Below, in pieces: positions 3,034 through 64,000 of a stretch of DNA of 64,000 nt (the first letter of the stretch is position 1; every line of letters starts with the position of its first letter). Position numbers and translations under genes: made by a program. This stretch comes from Mya arenaria (Eukaryota > Mollusca > Bivalvia > Myida > Myidae): the NCBI RefSeq assembly GCF_026914265.1, contig NC_069134.1, forward strand, positions 67,139,594 to 67,203,593, given 5' to 3'. The notes beneath the pieces are model-generated. The model did not search any database, had not been told where the DNA came from, and saw only the letters and a list, made by a program, of their open reading frames with translations.

Positions 3034-3534
3034 TACGACATTGGACATTGGACATTCAAAATCGAATGTTGTGCTGGCACGACATTGGACATTGGACATT
3101 CAAAAGTGAAAGTCGTGCTAGCACGACATTGGACATTCAAAATCGAATGTTGTGCTGGCACGACATTGGACATTGGACATTCAGAATCGAATGTTGTGCT
3201 GGCACGACATTGGACATTGGACATTCAAAAGTGAAAGTCGTGCTAGCACGACATTGGACATTGGACATTCAAAATCGAATTTTGTGCTGGCACGACACTG
3301 GACATTGGGCATTGGACATTCAAAAGTGAAAGTCGTGCTAGCACGACATTGGACATTGGACATTCAAAATCGAAAGTTGTGCTGGCACGACATTGGACAT
3401 TGGACATTCAAAAGTGAAAGTCGTACTAGCACGACATTGGACATTGGACATTCAAAATCGAATGTTGTGCTGGCGCGACATTGGACATTGGACATTCAAA
3501 AACGATTGTCGTGCCGGCACGACATTGGACATTG
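3034..3534. repeat. 44/37-bp palindromic satellite, block 2
   Basis: Same monomer classes as block 1. The last ~250 bp (from about 3284) match the end of block 1 unit for unit, including the unusual 'ggacattgggcattggacat' variant, with a few single-base differences (for example cgaattttg against cgaatgttg). This shows that the duplication includes part of the array as well as the tail. Confidence 0.95.
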
Positions 3535-4350
3535 GTATGACGGGCTGGTCGGACAGCTAAGTCTATTACCACACGACCTGCACACTTGGACACCGTCTCA
3601 CGCTATTATTTGTCAAGTGTAGAAGCACTCAAGTTTATTTTTTTTCCCAAGAATCACATTATGTAGCCTATTAGTATCTTCCATGGCCGAGAGTGTAAGA
3701 TGGGTTCAGCCCAACCCGAGCGTAGGGTCTTTTGCGGAAACGAGGTTTACCTGTTTCCGCAGAACACCCTGTGCGAGGGTTGGTATGAACCTATCTTACA
3801 CGAGCGACTATGGTAGATGTTTTTCTGTCTCACCGCAGTTAAACAAAATAATGTAAAAATGTATTTTATCGCTGGAACTTTTTTGTGCGTAGTGAAAATA
3901 ATGTGCGCATAGATATATGACAATTCCTGGTTGTCATAGATGTTCGCGCAGTGATTCAGATTATGTTAATAGTCAAATCGTTCTTTAAATAGATCTGGAT
4001 GCAGCAAAGTGAAGGCAATAAAAAAGACTTCCATACGGGTACTTGTTTATCTTTGCCCGTTGGGAAGATAAAAACGCATGGACAAATGTTTGAATCTACT
4101 TTTCTGAGGTGGCAGAAATATATATATCCGAAATCTTGGACTGGTGATAAGGCTGCAATTCTAATTTGTCCATTCAAATTATTGTGTTAAATAACGACAT
4201 TCAACTTGGCTTTTATTTTTTAAATATGGTTTATAATAACGTATATCTATCTATTCATAGTGACCAAATATTATTTAGGCATCCAATGGAAGTGGTAAAT
4301 ATTAAGAGAAAAAATATAATGAAACGACAACCAGTATACAAATAATAATT
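3531..4350. repeat. Satellite-linked tail sequence, copy 2
   Basis: Copy of 1873-2692 at a fixed 1658-bp offset. The lack of visible divergence across ~820 bp of non-coding DNA points to a recent duplication, gene conversion or an assembly artefact. It carries the hairpin at 3680-3823. Confidence 0.9.
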
Positions 4351-5630: not shown

Positions 5631-6195
5631 TGCTAGCACGACTTTCACTTTTGAATGTCCAATGTCCAATGTCGTGCTGGCCCAACATTCGATTTTGAAT
5701 GTCCAATGTCCAATGTCGTGCCAGCACAACATTCGATTTTGAATGTCCAATGTCCAATGTCGTGCTGGCCCAACATTCGATTTTTAATGTCCAATGTCCA
5801 ATGTCGTGCCAGCACAACATTCGATTTTGAATGTCCAATGTCGTGCCAGCACAATATTCGATTTTGAATGTCCAATGTCCAATGTCGTGCCAGCACAACA
5901 TTCGATTTTGAAAGTCCAATGTCCAATGTCGTGCCAGCACAACATTCGATTTTGAATGTCCAATGCCCAATGTCGTGCTAGCACGACTTTCACTTTTGAA
6001 TGTCCAATGTCCAATGTCGTGCCAGCACAACATTCGATTTTGAATGTCCAATGTCCAATGTCGTGCTAGCACGACTTTCACTTTTGAATGTCCAATGTCC
6101 AATGTCGTGCTAGCACAACATTCGATTTTCAATGTCCAATGTCCAATGTCGTGCTAGCACAACATTCGATTTTCAATGTCCAATGTCCAATGTCG
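5631..6195 (-). repeat. 44/37-bp palindromic satellite, block 3 (inverted)
   Basis: The same satellite in reverse orientation to blocks 1 and 2. Its right edge joins 'gtcgtatgtttagctaact' (6190-6221), the reverse complement of the left end seen at 3009-3034. Its left edge (5631) passes straight into unrelated DNA without the 820-bp tail, so this copy is truncated at its 3' side. Confidence 0.93.
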
Positions 6196-6221
6196 TATGT
6201 TTAGCTAACTTTACACAGCTG

Positions 6222-7387
6222 AGTCATAATATACCGATTTCCTACGAGTAATTTACATGATAGGTCAGTTTTCATTATAGGTATAATCAATAATGCTGAA
6301 ATACCATTACCTGAACTTGATGATAAAGGATAACAGTAATATTGATACTCCTGCCTTCACTGGCTTTTTCTTCGAAAGCAGCAATAATCCGATATATTGA
6401 TAATTGTTCCCAATGAACATGGTGTCGAAACAATTAACCGTGTTTTGATATACGCGTCCTTTTTTATTTAACATTTATATTTCATCTCCACTAATTCTAA
6501 ATAAAACGACTAAATTTGTTCGCACGTCCATGAGACGAAGGTATGAATAGGAACAAAAGATAAGAGGCTGTAAACCATAATGGATGTATGTTTCACCACA
6601 TACACATAATCATTATGGATCAGAATGATGTTCTTTCAAATTGTTATAATGAGTCCTAAGTCTGAGTTGCTGTATTTTCGAAAGCGACCACCAAAGCAGA
6701 AATGATATTAAAACGAATACGAAAAAGAACAGTATCTGTATTTCTTTTTTTAACAGTACACACAATAAACACACTAATTAAGTAAAGAAATGACAATATT
6801 TAACAATGTGGTGTTTAACTAGGATAAAATAGAGATCATATACATACAGGAATTAAAATATTAAATCAAAATAATCATCAATCATTACACATACACACAA
6901 TATATTCAAACAATGATCAGCAATTATTATAATACAACAGACATTCATAAAAGAACTACTCGGTGTGGAACTTAGTAACAATGTATTCTTAAAAGAACTA
7001 GGTCATGATGGTATTTGCTATATACTCTTGGTATATGTTCACCACTGTCAGGTCAAGGTCAGGTCAAGGTAGGTCACAAGGTAAAGTGTATGATAATTCT
7101 TTCTAAAACACGAATCCTTTTTATAATGAATCTTGTTCATCGGTCAAAATATTTTGTTTAAATCCTGTTCAAAATTTAAAGTAAGTAACGCTTTTAAAGA
7201 CTATTTTATTTAAAGAACTTTGGTGGTAGTTTGTATATCATACACTTAATGTTTGTGCTTTCGGATGCTGTCAATATATTTTATAAAGGTCGCTTGGTGA
7301 AATTTCGAAAAACCTGTTCATATAATAAGTGCCTCATGTTTTAATTTCGATTTATGAAACTAGGCCAGAGAGTATGCTATATAAATA
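6222..7387. other. AT-rich DNA, no gene recognised
   Basis: No exon or RNA gene seen. The only notable item is the AGGTCA-type cluster listed separately at 7047-7077. Confidence 0.55.
7047..7077 (+). promoter_or_regulatory. Cluster of AGGTCA nuclear-receptor half-sites
   Basis: Within 31 bp there are overlapping direct repeats of AGGTCA/AGGTAGGTCA, including TCAAGGTCA, which matches the extended half-site recognised by monomeric nuclear receptors of the ERR and NR5A types. The spacing is irregular. It may be a real response element or a chance short repeat; no nearby transcription start is evident. Confidence 0.3.
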
Positions 7388-8768
7388 TGTGACCAGTCAC
7401 GGGAATTTTGGCCCGAAACCACTTTTTGGGCGAAAATGAGATACGAGTAATTTCTGACACTCATATTCTTTAGGATAAAAACACTGAAGAGAAAATTCAA
7501 AAATTCCTATTTTTAACGAAATTATGACAAAAACTAGAAGGGCACTTGTTTAAGAAACAGCTGGAAATTCGGTAAAGTTCAAAAATTTATTGAAACATTT
7601 GTATTCACAGATGCAATAAATATGCATTTACTACAATTCCCACATTATAACAACAACATATTTTCAAAAACATTCTCAATTATTATTGAGAAAATAAATG
7701 AAAATTAATTGGTTACAATGGCAACCGTTATTGAAAAAAGGCGTTTTGGGGTTAAATTCGCATTTAAATATACAATAAAAGTCATTTGAAGCATTCGGTA
7801 ATAATTGATTTGTTAATTGATATCCTCAAACCTTACTGTACCTGGTGTATGTATTTGACAAATGTCAGAATAAATAAAAACTATTTGCTGTAGTTTATTG
7901 GAAATTTTTCACAATAAATTGACATTAGGCTGGAACTTGCAAATAATAAATGTACAATGTATATGTAGAGGTTAAAGTATGTTACCACTGTAATTAACTA
8001 TTATTTATCTTCTTTGAATGGTCTTAAAGGGTTTGTTTTTTATCCTGGTTACCATGGCAACAGGCCACAAACATGATCAGTATCACACCAACTTAACCTC
8101 AAATGTGATTTTTGTATAGTCATTTATAGCTCATAAAACATGAAATGGTGGTTAATATACTCTTAATTTAATAAACATAACAATACTGCATAATTTACAC
8201 TATTATATAATAAGATCAGTTAATAAATGGGCACATTTACAAAATGAAAACAATTTCTTAACATACTAACTACTTAGCATGTACAAGTCATTATGTAGTT
8301 TCAAGAAGTATGCAATTGGCCACATAGTACATGACAAATGATATTCTCGATGCTTATTCATAGGTAAAAGTTGCTAAGGTACATTTTATCAGGCTGTGAA
8401 TTAACTAATTTTGACAAACAGTATTATAAATGTCTTCAATTCAAGCATTTATAGGCTTCAACTGCCAGATTTTTTTAAGTTTGTATTAATAATTAATAAT
8501 CATAAAGTGGTCTCCATTATGGCAGAAGAGTTCTACCAACAAAAGACTGGGTGCAGCACCCTTCCATCACTCATTTGCTAAAACCACAGTTTATCACTCA
8601 AAATCACTGGTAGCCTTATTTCACATAAACAAGTTTCTATTGAAAAATAATTGTCAAACAAAAATTGATTTAAGTTTATAAAGATCACATATCAGTATAC
8701 TGAAAAGTTCTTTTCACTTATTTAAGGTATCAGAGCCTTTTTGCATCAAGTCCTTTTAGTTGGATGGT

Positions 8769-10235
8769 TCAGGGTACTCTCCATGGAAAAGCCATTGTTG
8801 TGGGCTTGTCAATTTTAACTTCAATCTCACTGTCCTTGGCATGCTCTCTCATGAATTCACTCACTGGGTTGTCAGCTGAAGTTCTGAAAAATAATGTTCA
8901 TATGTACAATACTTAGTGTTTGGAATAATTATGCAAATTAACTTGAACATCAAAACTCACATCTGAATAAAATGGAAAATTAGTCTAGATATACATACAC
9001 AGGCAGTGATACTGTCCATAATACTGTTGTTATACCTGAAGTGATGATATTTCCTCAAGTTTGGAATGGACTTCAGGGGTCTCTTGGTGTACTCCAACCA
9101 GTCAAAGAATATAACCAGTTTGCCAAGGTCATCAATCCACAAAAGATGTGTGCTGCCTCCATTTGGTCTAAATAAATAAACATGTTGTTTATATTATGAT
9201 ATAATACCTATTGTTTTAACACAAGCTTTCTTTCACATAATAAGGTATTATTACCAACATCAGTGTCTAAATAAAGTACCAAACTTCAATATTTTTTGTA
9301 CACAAAATCCTTTAATTTGGCTTTAAATCGACATTTAAAGCACCAACATTAAAAAAAAAAAAACTTACAACTTACCTCCCACAGACCAAATCTCTGACAG
9401 GACTGAACTTTATGTCACCTGCTTCCATTTTAGTAAATGCTGTTTTTCTCCCTTCAGAATACATCAGACCCTTAAACATAGAATAACATACAATTTATTG
9501 AACTGATTGCCTTCATTCCATGGCATTTAGAGAAGTAAGAGAACAGATTTAAGCCCAAACTATTTTTATAAGTCTAATGAATATTTTGAGATTTCTGATT
9601 ACTTGTATTGAAAAAATAATAAATGTTACATTGTTTTGTTATTCTGATGTTCTCATGTGTCAATATGCAGTGCATAAGTGATGTATTTCAACATAACATA
9701 ATATTTTGTCAATCATACCCAATGACTGCATTGTTTTTATTCCGCCCAACACAGTTGTCAATGTGCAGGTATGCAAAGTCTTCTCTATATGGATGATGTT
9801 GAAAATGAGGTACCACACCATTGGCCACATAACAGCTAAACCCTTATCACTGAGATAAATATCTGTGAACCTGAAAAAACAGACTTTGAAATAGAAAAGA
9901 TATATATATATATATATATATTTATTTACACTATAATTTCATGTTCAAGTAAGAACTTTGAATAAAGGGGATATAAAATATTTAAACAAGAGCGCCCCAG
10001 AGCAAATGTGAGTGCTTCTCTGTTTTTTAAGTGAATTTACAAAATATAAAGGTTTTCCATTTCCCCTATAATAATTAAGTCAAATGGCAAAACTGTATTA
10101 ACCACTCAATTTATAAATAAGATTTACCATATGATTTACAGAACACTTCAAAGCAGGGCCTTCTTGCTGTGCCTAGTATGGGTAAAAGACCTGCTCGGCA
10201 TAATCAAAGCTGTAATGGATTGTTGTTCTATGTAC
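8769..10235 (-). pseudogene. Decayed multi-exon transposase-like gene (DUF7869-type motifs)
   Basis: Minus-strand exons: about 10150-10235, 9719-~9830, 9376-9470, 9036-9167 and 8769-8883 (stop at 8769-8771). The last three splice in phase with GT/AG sites and give a continuous C-terminus containing the motif NLRKYHHFR. The upstream exons hold HYSFDYAEQVFYPY and HIDNCVGRNKNN. From memory, these correspond to the H-DNC-GQNKNN and HYS-D-AQQV motifs of a widespread invertebrate protein family (DUF7869-like, thought to be RNase H-fold). An in-frame TAG follows YPY, and the segment expected after NNAVIGY is missing, so the copy is probably inactive. A possible 5' exon (10967-11030) ends at a GT donor. 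The family name is recalled and not verified. Confidence 0.55.
9900..9925. repeat. (TA)n microsatellite
   Basis: About a dozen TA dinucleotides inside an intron of the decayed transposase-like gene. Confidence 0.9.
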
Positions 10236-11560
10236 AGCAGGTGCTTGACCTGAAATTCACGTTTGATCATAATGTTGTAAAAATATGTATTTACAGAAAT
10301 ACAAATCTTTAACTGTTTATAGTTGGGGTGATGCCCCGGCAGATCAACATGTACACAATATTGCATGCCAAAGAAAGTTCCTGTTAGTCTGAATGTCATG
10401 CATTCCCAAAAAGCAGCTTGCAGCTACAGTCATTAATATTGGTCCTGGCTTTTACAGTATTGTGCTCAAATTCTATATAAACATTTTCCCCAACTGCATT
10501 AGTCTATTATTTTCATAATCATCATGATCATCTTCATCATAACAGAAATTTATTTCAATGTACCTGAACCTCATGAGATGGTATGTTATGCACATAAGTC
10601 AACATTGCTAAAAAAGTTCATCTACAACTTTAAATTCATCAACATAGCTAAAATTACAGTTAAACTGACACTCAAAATTAATTTGTAAAATCCATCAATA
10701 ATTTTATTGATAGTTGGCCGCGGTAAGATGATGATTATGTCCTTTTTCAGTCATCATAAGTATGCAAAAAAGGAATATCTGCTGGATTTTGATCTGTTTA
10801 CATTTTCAATGTCACACTGTCAAATTTCACTTCCGTTTTGTTTTCCTGCGATCAAGTTCCATCCATTTAACCGAATTTAGAATATATTGCATTACATTAA
10901 AGATATACACATTCGTAAAATTATATGCTTAAACAATGAAAATAATTCTACTTACCAACAAATTCCTATAATTTGATGTAAATGCCTTTAGTTCAGCTCG
11001 ACCTACATCCTCAAATTTGGGTTAAAAAATAGCCATGACAACTACGGGAGATAACACCAAAAGTAATAAACAATACGAAAGAAAGTGGTTAAAAAACACT
11101 ATTTCTATGAACATTACATTTTAAAGAATATAATTGACTTAACAATCTAGGGTGACAAAATGTTTAATGGTTGTTTTTACGATAAAAACTTCATTACTTT
11201 CTTATTTTTTACGCTTCAACTTTGCGCACGTTTTTCTCGAAATCGAGGCTATCGGTTTCGGGCCAAAAGTCTCATGACGCGTCACATATATTGATCAAGT
11301 TCGCTTATAGAAAATGTCTATTGAATGGTAGATCACTTGGATACATGTTCGAAAACCAAAAAGTATGGTACCCCATAAGATCTGCATGAGAGAATAAAAC
11401 TCAATATTTCTATATAAGAAATCATTTGCTTAATATAGTTGTTAAAGTTTGATACTTCTCAATCTGATGTTTGTGCATACAATGAACATATAATATATGA
11501 TTTTGGATGATAAATGATTCAATAATCAATTATTATGTTGTTGTTGTTTTTTAAATTCAG

Positions 11561-17519: not shown

Positions 17520-19405
17520 GTTAATAAGGTTGTTACCATTTTGTCATTAAACAAGACCGTAGAACTGTGTATCACTGTTTCAAGCCGTTACCATTTTGTT
17601 ATTAAACATTTAGACCGCAGCAGTGTTTTTTTCCATTTTCAGGCTGTAACCAATTTTCATTAAGCAAGACCTCAGCAGTGTGTATTCCAGTTTCAGCGTG
17701 TAATCATTGTTTCATTAAGCAAGACCTCAGCAGTGTGTATTCCAGTTTCAGCGTGTAATCATTGTTTCATTAAGCAAGACCTCAGCAGTGTGTATTCCAG
17801 TTTCAGCGTGTAATCATTGTTTCATTAAGTAAGACCTCAGCAGTGTGTATTCCAGTTTCAGCGTGTAATCATTGTTTCATTAAGCAAGACCTCAGCAGTG
17901 TGTATTCCAGTTTCAGCGTGTAACCATTTTGTCATTAAACAAGACCTCAGCAGTGTGTATTCCAGTTTCAGCGTGTAATCATTGTTTCATTAAGCAAGAC
18001 CTCAGCAGTGTGTATTCCAGTTTCAGCGTGTAATCATTGTTTCATTAAGCAAGACCTCAGCAGTGTGTATTCCAGTTTCAGCGTGTAACCATTTTGTCAT
18101 TAAACAAGACCTCAGCAGTGTGTATTCCAGTTTCAGCGTGTAATCATTGTTTCATTAAACAAGACCTCAGCAGTGTGTATTCCAGTTTCAGTGTGTAACC
18201 ATTGTTTCATTAAGTAAGACCTCAGCAGTGTGTATTCCAGTTTCAGCGTGTAATCATTGTTTCATTAAGCAAGACCTCAGCAGTGTGTATTCCAGTTTCA
18301 GCGTGTAATCATTGTTTCATTAAGCAAGACCTCAGCAGTGTGTATTCCAGTTTCAGCGTGTAATCATTGTTTCATTAAGCAAGACCTCAGCAGTGTGTGT
18401 TCCAGTTTCAATGTGTAACAATTGTTTCATTAAGCAAGACCTCAGCAGGGTGTATTCCAGTTTCAGGGTGTAACCATTGTTTCATTAAGCAAGACCTCAG
18501 CAGTGTGTATTCCAGTTTCAGCGTGTAATCATTGTTTCATTAAGCAAGACCTCAGCAGTGTGTATTCCAGTTTCAGCGTGTAATCATTGTTTCATTAAGC
18601 AAGACCTCAGCAGTGTGTATTCCAGTTTCAGCGTGTAACCATTGTTTCATTAAGCAAGACCTCAGCAGTGTGTATTCCAGTTTCAGCGTGTAATCATTGT
18701 TTCATTAAGCAAGACCTCAGCAGTGTGTATTCCAGTTTCAGCGTGTAATCATTGTTTCATTAAGCAAGACCTCAGCAGTGTGTATTCCAGTTTCAGCGTG
18801 TAATCATTGTTTCATTAAGCAAGACCTCAGCAGTGTGTATTCCAGTTTCAGCGTGTAATCATTGTTTCATTAAGCAAGACCTCAGCAGTGTGTATTCCAG
18901 TTTCAGCGTGTAACCGTTGTTTCATTAAGCAAGACCTCAGCCGTGTGTATTCCAGTTTCAGCGTGTAATCATTGTTTCATTAAGCAAGACCTCAGCAGTG
19001 TGTATTCCAGTTTCAGCGTGTAACCATTGTTTCATTAAGCAAGACCTCAGCAGTGTGTATTCCAGTTTCAGCGTGTAACCATTGTTTCATTAAGCAAGAC
19101 CTCAGCAGTGTGTATTCCAGTTTCAGCGTGTAATCATTGTTTCATTAAGCAAGACCTCAGCAGTGTGTATTCCAGTTTCAGCGTGTAACCATTGTTTCAT
19201 TAAGCAAGACCTCAGCAGTGTGTATTCCAGTTTCAGCGTGTAACCATTGTTTCATTAAGCAAGACCTCAGCAGTGTGTATTCCAGTTTCAGCGTGTAACC
19301 ATTGTTTCATTAAGCAAGACCTCAGCAGTGTGTATTCCAGTTTCAGCGTGTAATCATTCTGTCATTTAACAAGACCGTATCAGTGTTTATCCCTGTGTCG
19401 GTTAC
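17520..19405. repeat. 55-bp satellite array
   Basis: About 34 tandem copies of a 55-bp unit ('ttcattaagcaagacctcag' + 'cagtgtgtattccagtttca' + 'gcgtgtaatcattgt'). The first two units (from 17520) and the last (to 19405) are diverged, while the interior units differ by only one or two bases, the usual pattern of homogenisation. A variant with 'attttgtcattaaacaag' recurs 165 bp apart (near 17930 and 18095), showing local amplification of three-unit blocks. The sequence between repeats is not unique, so it is not a CRISPR array. Confidence 0.96.
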
Positions 19406-31835: not shown

Positions 31836-34800
31836 GGAGAATGCACATGACGATCAGTATAGATAACATAATGGAATGTGCACATAACGAAACAGAGAAC
31901 AAACCTTACATGTTGATAAGCAAACATATCATAATGAAGTGTGCACAACCGGAGAATGCACCTTATAAAATGATCAGTACATTTAATATAATGAAAGCTG
32001 CACATAACGAGATATAGAACATAACTAACATATTGATCAGTACACATAACATAATTAAGTGTGCTGCACATAATGACATGTAGAATAACATGTTCATTAG
32101 TATACATAGCATCTTGATAAGTATACATATGATCTTGATAAGTATACATAGCATCTTGACAAGTATACACAGCATAATGAAATGTGCACATAATGAAATG
32201 AAGAATGCACCAGACATGTTGATAAGTATACATAGCATAATGAAATGTGCACATAATAAAATGGAGTACAAACCTCACATGTTGAAAAGTAAACATAACA
32301 TAATGTAGTAATATGTACATTATAAAATAGAGAATGAACCAGACATGTTGATAAGTATACATAGCATAATGAACCATGCACATAATAAATGGAGAATGCA
32401 CCTGACATGTTGATTAGTATACATAGCATATTGAAGTATGCACATAACGAAATGGAGAATGCACTTGGCATGTTGATAAGTATACATAGCATAATGAAGT
32501 ATGCACATACCGAAATAGAGAATGATCTTGGCATGTTGATAAGTATACATAGCATAATGAAGTATGCATATAACGAAATGGAGAATGCACTTGACATGTT
32601 GATAAGTATACATAGCATAATGAAGTATGCATATAACGAAATGAAGAATGCACTTGACATGTTGATAAGTATACATAGCATATTGAAGTATGCACATAAC
32701 GAAATGGAGAATGCACTTGGCATGTTGATAAGTATACATAGCATAATGAAGTATGCACATAATAAATAAAGAATAAACCTGACATGTTGATAAGCATACA
32801 TAACATAATGAAGTATGCACATAACAAAATGGAGAATGCACTTGACATGTTGATAAGTATACATAGCATAATGAAGTATGCACATAACGAAATGGAGAAT
32901 GCACTTGACATGTTGATAAGTATACATAGCATAATGAAGTATGCACATAACGAAATGGAGAATGCACTTGACATGTTGATAAGTATACATAGCATAATGA
33001 AGTATGCACATAACGAAATGGAGAATGCACTTGACATGTTGATAAGTATACATAGCAGAATGAAGTATGCACGTAACGATTTGGAGAATGCACTTGACAT
33101 GTTGATAAGTATACATAGCATAATGAAGTATGCACATAATAAATGAAGAATGATCCAGACATGTTGACAAGCATACATAGCATAATGAAGTATGCACATA
33201 ACGAAATGGAGAATGCACTTGGCATGTTGATAAGTATACATAGCATATTGAAGTATGCACATAACGAAATGGAGAATGCACTTGGCATGTTGATAAGTAT
33301 ACATAGCATAATGAAGTATGCATATAACGAAATGGAGAATGCACTTGACATGTTGATAAGTATACATAGCATAATGAAGTATGCACGTAACGATTTGGAG
33401 AATGCACTTGACATGTTGATAAGTATACATAGCATAATGAAGTATGCACATAATAAATGAAGAATGATCCAGACATGTTGACAAGCATACATAGCATAAT
33501 GAAGTATGCACATAACGAAATGGAGAATGAACCTGACATGTTGATAAGTATACATAGCATATTGAAGTATGCACATAACGAAATGGAGAATGCACTTGGC
33601 ATGTTGATAAGTATACATAGCATATTGAAGTATGCACATAACGAAATGGAGAATGCACTTGGCATGTTGATAAGTATACATAGCATAATGAAGTATGCAT
33701 CTAACGAAATGGAGAATGCACTTGACATGTTGATAAGTATACATAGCATATTGAAGTATGCACATAATAAATGAAGAATGCACTTGGCATGTTGATAAGT
33801 ATACATAGCATAATGAAGTATGCACATAATAAATGAAGAATAAACCAGACATGTTGATAAGCATACATAGCATAATGAAGTATGCACATAACGAAATGGA
33901 GAATGCACTTGACATGTTGGTAGGTATACATAGCATAATGAAGTATGCACATAACGAAACGGAGAATGATCTTGGCATGTTGATAAGTATACATAGCATA
34001 ATGAATTATGCATATAACGAAATGGAGAATGCACTTGACATGTTGATAAGTATACATAGCATAATGAAGTATGCACATAACGAAATGGAGAATGCAATTG
34101 ACATGTTGATAAGAATACATAGCATAATGAAGTATGCACATAACGAAATGGAGAATGCACTTGGCAGTTGATAAGTATACATAGCATAATGAAGTATGCA
34201 CATAACGAAATGGAGAATGCACTTGACATGTTGATAAGTATACATAGCATAATGAAGTATGAATATAACGAAATGGAGAATGCACTTGACATGTTGATAA
34301 GTATACATAGCATAATGAAGTATGCACATAACGAAATGGAGAATGCACTTGGCATGTTGATAAGTATACATAGCATAATGAAGTATGTATATAACGAAAT
34401 GGAGAATGCACTTGACATGTTGATAAGTATACATAGCATAATGAAGTATGCACGTAACGATTTGGAGAATGCACTTGACATGTTGATAAGTATGCATAGC
34501 ATAATGAAGTATGCACATAATAAATGAAGAATGAACCAGACATGTTGATAAGTATACATAGCATAATGAAGTATGCACATAATAAATGAAGAATGAACCA
34601 GACATGTTGATAAGTATACATAGCATAATGAAGTATGCACATAACGAAATGGAGAATGCACTTGGCATCTTGATAAGCATACATAGCATAATGAAGTATG
34701 CACATAATAAATGAAGAATGAACCAGACATGTTGATAAGTATACATAGCATAATGAAGTATGCACATAACGAAATGGAGAATGCACTTGGCATGTTGATA

Positions 34801-35710
34801 AGTATACATAGCATAATGAAGTATGCATATAACGAAATGGAGAATGCACTTGACATGTTGATAAGTATACATAGCATAATGAAGTATGCACATAACGAAA
34901 TGGAGAATGCACTTGACATGTTGATAAGTATACATAGCATAATGAAGTATGCACATAACGAAATGGAGAATGCACTTGGCATGTTGATAAGTATACATAG
35001 CATAATGAAGTATGCATATAACGAAATGGAGAATGCACTTGACATGTTGATAAGTATACATAGCATAATGAAGTATGCACGTAACGATTTGGAGAATGCA
35101 CTTGACATGTTGATAAGTATGCATAGCATAATGAAGTATGCACGTAACGATTTGGAGAATGCACTTGACATGTTGATAAGTATACATAGCATAATGAAGT
35201 ATGCACATAATAAATGAAGAATGAACCAGACATGTTGATAAGTATACATAGCATGTTGATAAGTATACATAGCATGTTGATAAGTATACATAGCATGTTG
35301 ATAAGTAAACATAGCATGTTGATAAGTATTCATAGCATGTTGATAAGTATACATAGCATGTTGATACGTATACATAGCATAATGAAATGTGCACATAATA
35401 AATGGAGAATGCCCCTGACATGTTGATAAGTATACATAGCATAATGAAGCATGCACATAATAAATGAAGAATGAACCAGTCATGTTGATAAGTACACATA
35501 GCATGTTGATAAGTATACATAGCATGTTGATAAGTATACATAGCATGTTGATAAGTAAACATAGCATGTTGATAAGTATACATAGCATGTTGATAAGTAT
35601 ACATAGCATGTTGATACGTATACATAGCATGATGAAATGTGCACATAATAAATGGAGAATGCACCTGACATGTTGATAAGTATACATAGCATAACGAAAT
35701 GTGCACACTT
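31836..35710. repeat. 63-bp satellite array (3 x 21-bp ancestry), ~3.9 kb
   Basis: Unit of 63 bp: 'ttgacatgttgataagtata' + 'catagcataatgaagtatgc' + 'acataacgaaatggagaatg' + 'cac'. The left 600 bp are diverged and the interior is nearly homogeneous. The thirds of the unit resemble each other ('cataatgaagtatgcacata' against 'cgaaatggagaatgcacttg'), and in 35230-35380 and 35480-35635 the array is a pure 21-mer run of 'catgttgataagtatacata', so the 63-mer derives from a 21-mer. Because 63 is divisible by three and the unit lacks stops in several frames, long frames appear (1203 codons on the minus strand). These are not annotated as genes. Confidence 0.95.
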
Positions 35711-45588: not shown

Positions 45589-47499
45589 CTATAAGTTCGT
45601 GCTTGAATTATTTTCGTCAGCATAAGCATTAATATCTAATCCATCCTTCGTGTTTGGATTATGGTCGTCAGCAAACACATTATTATCTAATCCTTCCTTG
45701 TTGTGATCTGCAGCATACTTGTCTTCCTTTCCGTACACTACACCGAACCGCAGTGGTTTACGTATACTCTCAGGAAGACATGGAAACATTGTGTCAAATA
45801 TCGGGCACATTAGCCGGCTGTCAATAGTGTCTGCCCGTGTGTATCCAGTAAGAAAACTTACTAGCACAGCAACAAAGACAGCAATGATCATTCCCAGACC
45901 GGTGTACCATTGGTATGATATCCGATAGAAGTCGTAGAGAACTGGTTCGTCGGTGTTCATCATGATTGTTGTCATGTTTGTTGCCATGGACGTTGGAAGA
46001 AGTGTCGTTGTGGTGTAAAGTGAGTTATTACACCCATAGGTATAGGTAGGTAATGGAAAAGATGGCCCCTTTGGTGATTCTATAAGCTTTCCTAGTCCAA
46101 GCCAGCACATGAATGCCAGGGAAACGATAAATCCAGCCACAGCGCCAATCTCATTTGTCCATGGAAATATCATACCTGCTACGAACAAGCCAAAAATAGG
46201 ACCTGCCGTTATTGAATACAAACTGTAAGAGAACTGTACAATTAAACCGGTAAACTTTGATATCAAGACTGCAAATCCAAACTGGATGAAACCCATTACA
46301 ACAACGAGGATTTTAGAAATAACAATCCCGTACTTTGCGAATAGTTTGCTTTTACACGCATTTGCTATCGGCTTCAAATAGTCCTCTTGTACAACAGCTG
46401 ACATTGCATTTAGTCCTGACGATATTGTACTCAAACCTCCGCTAAATACGCACGCAATAAACACACCTGCCAGCCCCGGAACTTTCCCCAAGGTGTCCAT
46501 AACAAACAATGGCAGTAACTGGTCACTTCTATTAATAAGTCCGGCTGTCACAGGATGGCATGATTGATAAACAGCATATATCACTACACCGATCATGCAG
46601 GTCAGGGTAACAATAAGAATGAGTCCCACAAGGTTCAGCCACATCGCTATTTTTGCCTTTCTGAGTGTAGGCAAGGAGCATACACGTTGAACTTGAGCCT
46701 GGTTGACAGCGTACAGGTACAACCAGAAAAATGACCCGCCAATAGCTACTGTCCATACACTATGACGTGTCTTCGGATCGGGTGAAAACTCTAGGAATTC
46801 AATTCTGCCATTTTCATTTGCGATATTCCAAGCATTTTCAAAACCGTTTGCATATTTGGAACCTTCAATAATTACTGCCAACAGACCAGCAACCATGATT
46901 GAGAATTGAAGTGAGTCTGTCCATATCACCGTCTTCATTCCCCCGAGAGTGGTGTAAAGTGTACAAATCGCGGCTGTCCCGATCATGGAACCCCAGAGTG
47001 AAACTCCTGTGACAGCCTCAAGTGCTAGAGAGGGGGCATACAGGACGAATCCCATGTATACCAACGTCTGAATCATGAACAGTATCGATGTGATGAAACG
47101 CGCTACTTTGCCGAACCTCATCTCGAAGTATTGAAAACAGCTGGTGATATTCAGCCTGTAGAATACTGGAACGAATATGTGTGCCGCTGCAGCTATAGCT
47201 ATAACCATCGCCAAAACGATCCAGTAGAACATCGTGCCGTTGGTGTAGACCTCGGAAGGAGTGCCCAGGAGAGTCAGAGAGGAAAGAAACGTAGCTGACA
47301 ACGACAGGCTCACTGGAATTGGATGCATCTTTCGACCACCAAGGTGAAAGTCCTCGGCCTTTCGCTTGTTTCTATCTCTGTATGCATGGTAAAACCCGAT
47401 CGCAGCAGATGCAACGAACGCAAGAGAAAACAGTACATAATCAACAGTCCCAAATTCACCCTTTCGTCCTGTAAATATACTTAAATCTTTCTTATCCAT
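45589..47499 (-). CDS. Sodium/solute symporter, SLC5 family (SLC5A8/A6/A12-like)
   Basis: Intact single-exon frame of 636 residues. It has the SLC5/SSSF layout of about 13 membrane helices: TM1 near residues 19-40, then a basic loop leading to FHLGGRKM and the conserved SLSLSATFLSSLTLLGTPSE (63-83), the GGMKTVIWTDSLQF motif (186-199), the FIACVFSGGLSTISSGLNAM segment that contains the second sodium-site region, and a polar C-tail with a short duplicated phrase (GLDNNVFADD / GLDINAYADE). By family it would be a plasma-membrane Na+-coupled carrier of small anions such as monocarboxylates, iodide or vitamins; the substrate cannot be read from sequence. An extracellular loop has several N-glycosylation sequons (NNS, NMT). 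The length fits the family (about 600-650). Most animal SLC5 genes have many introns, so an intronless copy suggests retroposition or lineage intron loss. Confidence 0.93.
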   Translation of the reverse strand: MDKKDLSIFTGRKGEFGTVDYVLFSLAFVASAAIGFYHAYRDRNKRKAEDFHLGGRKMHPIPVSLSLSATFLSSLTLLGTPSEVYTNGTMFYWIVLAMVIAIAAAAHIFVPVFYRLNITSCFQYFEMRFGKVARFITSILFMIQTLVYMGFVLYAPSLALEAVTGVSLWGSMIGTAAICTLYTTLGGMKTVIWTDSLQFSIMVAGLLAVIIEGSKYANGFENAWNIANENGRIEFLEFSPDPKTRHSVWTVAIGGSFFWLYLYAVNQAQVQRVCSLPTLRKAKIAMWLNLVGLILIVTLTCMIGVVIYAVYQSCHPVTAGLINRSDQLLPLFVMDTLGKVPGLAGVFIACVFSGGLSTISSGLNAMSAVVQEDYLKPIANACKSKLFAKYGIVISKILVVVMGFIQFGFAVLISKFTGLIVQFSYSLYSITAGPIFGLFVAGMIFPWTNEIGAVAGFIVSLAFMCWLGLGKLIESPKGPSFPLPTYTYGCNNSLYTTTTLLPTSMATNMTTIMMNTDEPVLYDFYRISYQWYTGLGMIIAVFVAVLVSFLTGYTRADTIDSRLMCPIFDTMFPCLPESIRKPLRFGVVYGKEDKYAADHNKEGLDNNVFADDHNPNTKDGLDINAYADENNSSTNL

Positions 47500-48387
47500 T
47501 TTGATAATTTGTGAAAACGAAACTGCGTCAGTATTTGACAGATATATTCACATTTATGCACATCAATGCCTGCTGACAGTCCCTGTTATACAAGATTTGT
47601 TTACTCTGTCAGTGACCTTCTCTACTGCTCGTATTTGAATAGCGAATGCTTAAGTGGGAACCACTCAGACGCAACGGCAGTAAGTTTTAAAGCTATGTGT
47701 AATTAGATATTAGATAAATCTCAATCCAAAAACGAATACGATTCATTTCAAGGTGCAATTTCATCGATATAAGAAATACAAACCAGTGTTATAAATGACG
47801 TTGCTACATAAATGTATTTACATGTATGTGGTATTATCGCCTGATCTTCCCATGCATTGCTTGTCATCTAATATACTGCAGGTACGGACTGTTGAACTCT
47901 GATAACAAACAACATCGTAAATGAACTCATGTCCGACTACCCATATCACAACTATTTGAACGGTATCGGGATTTAATGTCCCTTCATTAAGGATGTTTGA
48001 AGCTGTCTTTCTTTTGTTTTTAATTACAATATTCTTAGCCAAGATGGATGAAAGTACACTGTAATTTTCTTATGGGGCTTAGATTTAAGAAAACTTTAAG
48101 ATAAGAAGTCTTGACGCAAATCATGATAGTTCTCTATGCATATTCGATCATTTATATCGATCGACATTTACTTTACAAACCATATAGCTTCAACACAAAA
48201 TAAAATAACCCTTAAATTACACTACATTAATATACGTTTTGATATATGCACTGAATAAAAATTATTGTGCGTCATGACGTGAGTAAACATCATCGCACGC
48301 GCCTTTTGGTAAAATGTACATAAAAAGCGTTTTTCTTCGTAACTTTCTTTGCAAAAAAGTGATTTAAGGTATGCTAGAAAAAGAAAT
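47500..48387. other. 5' flank of the SLC5-type gene, no other gene seen
   Basis: No clear TATA box or upstream non-coding exon could be assigned; the ATG at 47499 is preceded by 'gttttcacaaattatcaaa' on the coding strand. The 74-codon minus frame at 47818-48042 lacks a motif. Confidence 0.4.
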
Positions 48388-61499: not shown

Positions 61500-64000
61500 G
61501 ATTTCACCGTCTAAGTCATTATGTAAGGGCAGAATTTGCACGGACTCAGCTATTATGTCAGGGCAGAATGGCACAGTCTCAGCAATTATATACGAGCAGA
61601 ACTGCACGGTCTCAGTTATTATGTAAGGGAAGGGTTGCACGGTCTCAGTTATTATGTAAGGGAAGGACTGCACGGTCTCAGTTATTATGTAAGGGAATGA
61701 TTGCACGGTCTCAGTTATTATGTAAGGGAAGGATTGCACGGTCTCAGTTATTATGTAAGGGAAGGACTGCACGGTCTCAGTTATTATGTAAGGGAAGGAC
61801 TGCACGGTCTCAGTTATTATGTAGGGGAATGATTTCACCGTCTAAGTCATTATGTAAGGGCAGCATTTGCACGGACTCAGCTATTATGTCAGGACAGAAT
61901 CGCACAGTCTCAGCAATTATATACGGGCAGAATTGCACGGTCTCAGTTATTATGTAAGGGCAGGATTGCACGGTCCCAGCCATTATGTAAGGGTAGGATT
62001 GCACGGTCCCAGCCATTATGTAAGGGCAGGATTGCACGATCCAAGCCATTATGTAAGGGCAGGATTGCACGGTCTCAGCCATTATGTAAGGGCAGAATTG
62101 CACGGTCTCAGCCATTATGTAAGGGCAGAATTGCACGGTCTCAGCCATTATGTAAGGGCAGAATTGCACGGTCTCAGCTTCTATGTAAGGGCAGAATTGC
62201 ACGGTCTCAGCCATTATGTAAGAGCAGAATTGCACGGTCTCAGCCATTATGTAAGAGCAGAATTGCCCGGTCTCAGCCATTATGTAAGGGCAGAATTGCC
62301 CGGTCTCAGCCATTATGTAAGAGCAGAATTGCCCGGTCTCAGCCATTATGTAAGAGCAGAATTGCACGGTCTCAGCCATTATGTAAGAACAGAATTGCCC
62401 GGTCTCAGCCATTATGTAAGAACAGAATTGCCCGGTCTCAGCCATTATGTAAGAGCAGAATTGCACGGTCTCAGCCATTATGTAAGAGCAGAATTGCACG
62501 GTCTCAGCCATTATGTAAGAGCAGAATTGCCCGGTCTCAGCCATTATGTAAGGGCAGAATTGCCCGGTCTCAGCCATTATGTAAGAGCAGAATTGCACGG
62601 TCTCAGCCATTATGTAAGGGCAGAATTGCACGGTCTCAGCCATTATGTAAGGGCAGAATTGCACGGTCTCAGCCATTATGTAAGAGCAGAATTGCACGGA
62701 TTCAACAATGGTGTAAAGGCACAATTGCACAAGCTCAGCTATTATGTAAGGGCAGAAATGCATGGTCTCAGCCATGATGTAAGGGTGGAAATGCACGGTC
62801 TCAGTCATGATGTAAGGGTGGAAATGCACGGTCTCAGCCATGATGTAAGGGTGGAAATGCATGGTCTCAGCCATGATGTAAGGGTGGAAATGCACGGTCT
62901 CAGCCATGATGTAAGGGTGGAAATGCACGGTCTCAGCCATGATGTAAGGGTGGAAATGCATGGTCTCAGCCATGATGCAAGGGTGGAAATGCACGGTCTC
63001 AGCCATGATGTAAGGGTGGAAATGCACGGTCTCAGCCATGATGTAAGGGTGGAAATGCACGGTCTCAGTCATGATGTAAGGGTGGAAATGCACGGTCTCA
63101 GTCATGATGTAAGGGTGGAAATGCACGGTCTCAGCCATGATGTAAGGGTGGAAATGCACGGTCTCAGTCATGATGTAAGGGTGGAAATGCATGGTCTCAG
63201 TCATGATGTAAGGGTGGAAATGCACGGTCTCAGTTTGATGTAAGGGTGGAAATGCACGGTCTCAGTCATGATGTAATGGTGAAAATGCACGGTCTCAGTT
63301 AGATGTAAGGGTGGAAATGCACGGTCTCAGTCATGATGTAAGGGTGGAAATGCACGGTCTCAGTTAGATGTAAGGGTGGAAATGCATGGTCTCAGTCATG
63401 ATGTAATGGTGGAAATGCATGGTCTCAGTCATGATGTAAGGGTGGAAATGTACTTTCTCAGCCATGATGTAAGGGCAGAATTGCACGGTCTCAGCAATTA
63501 TGTAAGTGCAGAATTGCACGGATTCAACAATGGTGTAAAGGCACAATTGCACAGCCTCAGCTATTATGTAAGGGCAGAAATGCACGGTCTCAGCCATGAT
63601 GTAAGGGCAGAAATGCACGGTCTCAGTCATGGTGGTAGGGTGGGATTCAACGGTCTCAGACATTATTTTAGGACAGAATTGCACGGTCTCATTCGTTATG
63701 TGAGGACTAACTTGTATGGTCCCAGTCATTATGTGGGACAGAATTCCACGGTCTCAGTCACTACTCGAGTGCAGAATTACACGGTCTCTGACATTATGTA
63801 AGGGCAGAATTGCACAGTCTCAGTCACGAAGTGAGGTCAGAATTGCACGGTCTCAGTCATTACGTGAGGTCAGAATTGCACGGTCACAGACATTATGTGA
63901 GGGTAGGGTTGCACGGTCACAGACATTATGTGAGGGTAGGGTTGCACGGTCACAGACATAATGTAAAGGCGGGGTTGCTCGGTCTCAGTCGTTATGTGAG
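61500..64000. repeat. 33-bp satellite array, runs off the right edge
   Basis: About 75 copies of a 33-bp unit ('ggtctcagccattatgtaag' + 'ggcagaattgcac'). Variant classes are grouped in blocks: 'gaaggactgcac' (61600-61820), 'gcagaattgcac' (61930-62700), 'gtggaaatgcac' (62760-63470), then mixed and more diverged units. Longer blocks are duplicated: 'gactcagctattatgtcagg' recurs after ~330 bp (10 units), and 'gattcaacaatggtgtaaag' recurs after ~830 bp (about 25 units). Because 33 is a multiple of three, 11-residue periodic frames of up to 471 codons exist on both strands; they are not treated as genes. Confidence 0.95.

Follow-up and report, generated by a model that had tools for sequence, protein, structure and literature searches.

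Sola enzymes are DDD transposases, and the Sola superfamily with its Sola2 group was reportedly introduced by Bao et al. in 2009. In the excerpted text of PMC3627910, Sola2 elements are characterized by AT-rich 4-bp target-site duplications of the form AWWT (e.g., ATAT, AAAT, ATTT) and by inverted repeats of 12–21 bp, and members from Dictyostelium fasciculatum are described in which most of the transposase region has been deleted; an 888-aa protein of that species is also named there. Sola1, Sola2, and Sola3 are all reported from bivalves in the available portion of PMC10294476. PlavakaA shows TGT..ACA termini and 2-bp duplications, with Plavaka described from fungi in the accessible part of PMC12730594. 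The element investigated here probably represents a non-autonomous Sola2-like DNA transposon family carrying a decayed DUF7869-type transposase gene, likened to Sola2 by its target sites.

The window is a stretch of 64,000 nucleotides within contig C13 of the Mya arenaria assembly, which was searched as a whole (1.216 Gb, 18 contigs). The element occupies positions 7389..11285 of the window (3897 bp, a non-autonomous copy), with a left terminal inverted repeat at 7389..7420 (+) and a right one at 11254..11285 (−), reading GTGACCAGTCA.../...TGACGCGTCAC, and is flanked by 4-bp ATAT target-site duplications at 7385..7388 and 11286..11289. The terminal inverted repeats of about 33 bp proposed in the initial annotation were borne out: the pair was the longest among 60 inverted repeats between 6800 and 11900 (arms 7385-7420 and 11254-11289, 36 nt, 86% complementary), and the terminus pattern, with up to three mismatches, occurred at two places in the window, both of them element ends, against a shuffle expectation of 0 (100 shuffles). 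A genome-wide search with up to two mismatches revealed 80 forward and 80 reverse matches, compared with 0 + 0 for the reversed control. Among the open frames that overlap the window element, the longest has 92 codons.

We then collected copies of the element. A DNA search with the element returned at least 85 matching pieces, a lower bound as are all copy counts from this search (37 of 659 candidates scored), and 36 loci were fetched besides the window. Most of them match the element from first to last base, several with internal deletions or inserts, and these co-terminal copies elsewhere in the genome bear out its reading as a mobile DNA transposon. Among 27 long copies that were aligned, the 26 others showed identities of 0.93 to 0.98 to the window copy, and identities to L013 and L018 ranged from 0.91 (L010) to 0.999. 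The copies L030 and L031 are almost identical (branches of 0.0006 each) and their duplications differ (ATAT vs AAAT); because near-identical copies sit in different sites, they must have moved, rather than having been duplicated with their surroundings. The window family is a young, recently mobile group of cut-and-paste DNA transposons. L016 and L027 are a single insertion copied by segmental duplication (8.4 kb, 99.1%); contigs C13 and C10 (L045/L046) share at least 8.4 kb at 99.1%, element copy included. Two further loci, L034 (C16:12269805-12279800) and L036 (C14:26953927-26960108), consist of joined, partly repeated partial copies of the family, each locus enclosed by one outer ATAT duplication pair, and the C1 copy L010 (= L047) contains an insert and is damaged at its right end. 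A 7.2-kb terminus pair at C9:31689741, considered as a longer autonomous element, was rejected, as its extra length comes from 3 kb inserted into exon 3 of an ordinary copy; a 5.7-kb pair at C7:14445473 (L043) was read in part.

For the target-site duplications, the window and the 7.2-kb C9 copy were tabulated together with 33 of the fetched loci, 35 entries in all, with L010 and L043 outside this set; L016, L022, L027, L032, and L037 were set aside for having no clean end pair, which left 30 clean-ended copies. Identical AWWT 4-mers lay outside GTGAC..GTCAC in 29 of these 30 (ATAT 23, AAAT 4, ATTT 1, AATT 1), the exception being L039, whose ATGT/ACAC flanks fit neither a 2-bp nor a 4-bp reading. 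The outer A and T were constant in 29/29, and the central dinucleotide was AA, TT, or AT, not TA, in 6/29. The TA noted on both flanks in the initial annotation is thus present as the middle, but is better read as part of a 4-bp ATAT duplication. Written with TGTGAC..GTCACA termini, the identical data become 2-bp WW duplications within A..T, and within the window family alone the two readings are inseparable, the outer bases being invariant in the 29. The 2-bp reading, which we considered first, was dropped in favor of the 4-bp reading once the outer bases of a second element of the same genome, described below, were seen to vary in step.

The window element contains a relic gene on its minus strand. 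A stretch at ~10176..10217 carries the motif HYSFDYAEQVFYPY, with the candidate Asp for the first catalytic position, and then runs into a stop codon; variants of this motif were present in at most 32 of 37 sense sequences. Relic exon 3 (~9719..9870), with a frame break upstream of GFSCY, carries HIDNCVGRNKNN, intact in 11 of the 37; FDYAEQ and HIDNCVGRNKNN are the candidate sites of the first and second catalytic aspartates. Of the 25 aligned copies counted, a set without L010 and L027, stops interrupt relic exon 4 (9376..9470; GLMYSEGR...DLVCGR) in 23 and relic exon 5 (9036..9167; PNGGSTHLLWIDD...IPNLRKYHHFR) in 22, with none in the window copy for either exon, and relic exon 6 (8769..8883; TSADNPVSEF...WRVP) ends at an in-frame TGA. 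In the window copy, the frames tested for exons 3–6 are free of stops, but a stop follows the FDYA stretch and the frame is broken where exon 3 begins. The minus-strand gene had been credited with at least three in-phase introns, and two of these stand, exons 4/5 and 5/6 joining at GT..AG with matching codon phase as read by eye; a third is not shown, since exon 3 spliced directly to exon 4 meets a stop, as would be the case if an intervening exon had been lost.

In relatives, the second aspartate is followed by a G-H-T..D motif. No match to a crude G-H-T..D pattern for this third catalytic motif turned up in the 37 sense sequences, in keeping with their being non-autonomous, and no full catalytic triad was detectable in the copies looked at. 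The motif search suggests that the third catalytic stretch has been lost in the window family. Divergence among the aligned copies was 0.036/0.027/0.033 at codon positions 1/2/3 and 0.038 in introns; position 2 was slightly lower, and because no excess of third-position change was observed, there is no visible sign that selection maintained the gene during the spread of the family. The DUF7869-like gene survives in the aligned copies as a relic under neutral decay. With the gene decayed and its third catalytic motif unrecognisable, the copies examined are non-autonomous, and the family appears to move in trans.

The Pfam profile PF25273 (DUF7869) matched window exon 3 with E = 0.022 and 14.8 bits (13.8 in another search), below its 26-bit gathering cut-off, and the D2 motif of the HIDNCVGRNKNN region, HIDNC-G-NKNN, aligned to profile positions 61-80. 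A Pfam profile search for DUF7869 gave no match in exon 3 of L030 or in the joined exons 4–6, and no Pfam match to another transposase family was obtained with seven relic pieces of the window, where decay limits sensitivity; a solved-structure search with exons 4–6 found nothing. Accordingly, the name as applied to the relic rests on motif order and a weak match. A relative elsewhere in the genome does pass the cut-off.

To relate gene and termini, we compared their positions across the genome. A peptide search with the relic yielded 197 exon matches, of which 150, among the matches listed, fell into 69 loci; the terminus listing held 100 of the 160 termini. A listed terminus lay no more than 6.5 kb away in 55 of the 69 listed relic loci (chance ~0.001 per locus), and 27 have at least two termini. 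These results support the mobile-element context claimed for the DUF7869-type gene, which travels inside the termini, and homologues lying outside any inverted repeats are not the rule: 14 of the 69 listed loci had no listed terminus nearby, one of which, C4:52958691 (in L032), is a known copy with mutated ends. Conversely, 19 of the 100 listed termini had no listed relic locus nearby. An 811-bp pair of element termini at C9:13338055-13338865, also with no listed relic nearby, is perhaps a short deletion derivative of the window family. No intact gene was found inside window-family termini among the 100 of 160 listed, and of the 139 significant matches to DUF7869 the closest to any of these termini lies 73.6 kb off. 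A relative at C1:35611905 with a stop-free exon 5, examined as a possible intact gene, proved to be another relic; its exon 4 ends in CTGTCTGAGATTT, where it shares the position of a TGA with aligned main-group copies.

The 139 matches were obtained by a PF25273 profile search of the genome, and the window element was not among them. Fifteen of them are alike (38.1–39.6 bits, profile positions 27–168), and 12 of these 15 lie in 974-codon frames. The representative L053, 99.8% identical to L054 over 3879 bases, has this frame at L053:1608-4529 (−), with no intron and the first Met at residue 107; it contains an OTU protease domain (residues 197–312, 25.8 bits vs a cut-off of 23.3) and DUF7869 (residues 715–858, 34.7 bits vs a cut-off of 26). 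A candidate catalytic triad, assigned by eye, comprises D674, D752, and D795, with 77 and 42 residues between them. The C3 element is 4210 bp long and bounded by CGTCCCATTAGAGC and the inverse of that sequence, and these termini are accompanied by inner repeats of GCAAAAAGGTACCA. Ten of the 15 elements were read at both ends, and all ten showed perfect 4-bp duplications (ATAT x5, AAAT, ATGT, ATAC, ATTT, GTAT); seven fit AWWT, and ATGT, ATAC, and GTAT depart from it. Since the outer bases differ between insertions yet agree at the two ends of each, the duplication of this element is truly 4 bp. The OTU + DUF7869 elements (L053 and 14 others), with their frame without introns, have probably been active recently.

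The target preference of the 974-codon element resembles that of the window family: both have 4-bp duplications with ATAT preferred, and both share the motif order FD / D-x-C-x-G-x-N-x-N. They differ in the intronless frame, the OTU domain, and the termini of the 974-codon element, and the window element gave no blastn match to L053. The 974-codon element shows that DUF7869 is associated with 4-bp, ATAT-preferring transposition, which we regard as the finding worth keeping. Intron-containing DUF7869 copies also occur in this genome: L051 and L052 (C10:33585200 and C17:42355700), which carry the motifs GHTHEDIDQVF and DNSGKDNKN, are 96–98% alike across almost all of the 8 kb fetched, which puts their ends outside it.

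Compared with Sola2 as excerpted in PMC3627910, the window family agrees in its AWWT duplications, including ATAT, AAAT, and ATTT, in having inverted repeats, and in the existence of transposase-deleted members; it differs in repeats of ~32 bp instead of 12–21 bp and in the spliced relic gene of its copies. The AWWT form was found in 29 of the 30 clean-ended copies, a family that the 2-bp WW reading within A..T fits as well, and the inverted repeats were compared with those of Sola2 by presence, not by terminus sequence. Judged by these 4-bp AWWT sites, and to the extent that the excerpts of PMC3627910 describe the group, what the initial annotation had suggested might be a little-described superfamily appears instead to be the described, little-studied Sola2 group.

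Enzymes that are not related could have the same target-site preference. The DUF7869 transposons may form a superfamily distinct from Sola2 with merely a common target preference, a reading that we consider rather unlikely. The link to Sola2 consists of target sites and general features, not sequence, and OTU, present in the intact-looking element, is absent as a word from the excerpted text of PMC3627910; against this, the AWWT duplications closely match those given there for Sola2, and the by-eye spacing of the three aspartates (674, 752, 795) is in line with the DDD character of Sola. A broader proposal, which we put forward tentatively and would not yet bet on, is that DUF7869 proteins, for which no function is annotated, serve as transposases for a large branch of ATAT-targeting transposons in animals. 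In the clam this branch would comprise at least an OTU-protease-armed intronless lineage and intron-containing lineages whose termini are unrelated, all within a superfamily that is either distinct from Sola2 or far broader than it.

Placement of the window element in the CMCT group near PlavakaA appears very improbable. Its TGTGAC..GTCACA termini with WW duplications, if read as 2 bp, do fit the TGT..ACA ends and short duplications of that group, but Plavaka is described from fungi in the available portion of PMC12730594, and the 4-bp reading is backed by the invariant outer A/T of the window family and by the in-step outer bases (GTAT, ATAC) of the DUF7869 element. Sola2 is favored over PlavakaA by the reading as 4 bp and by the parallel with the DUF7869 element. 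There is similarly little to commend a Tc1/mariner-type or other TA-targeting transposon with the DUF7869 gene as a captured passenger: TA is central in 23/29 duplications and non-autonomous elements can hold captured gene pieces, but duplications are not of TA only (AA, TT, or AT being central in 6/29, with outer A/T in 29/29), the same-genome DUF7869 element shows the same preference with 4-bp duplications in 10/10, and the longest overlapping frame has 92 codons, with no other transposase family in the seven pieces searched.

Under the Sola2-like reading, an autonomous ancestor would have carried a minus-strand, intron-containing DUF7869-type gene encoding the transposase; in an ancestral copy the region of the third catalytic residue may then have been lost, after which this copy would have spread passively. 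A transposase supplied in trans from another locus would recognise the inverted termini, excise the element, and insert it at AWWT sites, mostly ATAT, the repair of a 4-bp stagger producing the flanking duplication. We infer that the partner enzyme is of DUF7869/Sola2 type and still present in the genome. A Pfam domain of unknown function thereby receives a probable job, as the transposase of elements inserting at ATAT-like sites; a literature search on the name DUF7869 found no paper. Furthermore, this bivalve holds a group of elements that look young, have long open frames, and could be tested for activity. DNA transposons are reported to be expanded in the transmissible cancer of Mya arenaria in the accessible part of PMC10663159, for which the window family is an added candidate.

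Several other features were observed in the rest of the window. Arrays of a 44-bp unit (GACATTGGACATTCAAAATCGAATGTTGTGCTGGC...) lie left of the element at 31-1877 and 3035-3535 (+) and, in inverse orientation, at 5631-6196. Further long tandem arrays occupy 17612-19390 (55-bp unit), 32152-35707 (63-bp unit, with strong strand skew), and 61501-63997 (33-bp unit). A 652-codon open frame at 45589-47547 (−) resembles, by eye, a sodium/solute symporter.
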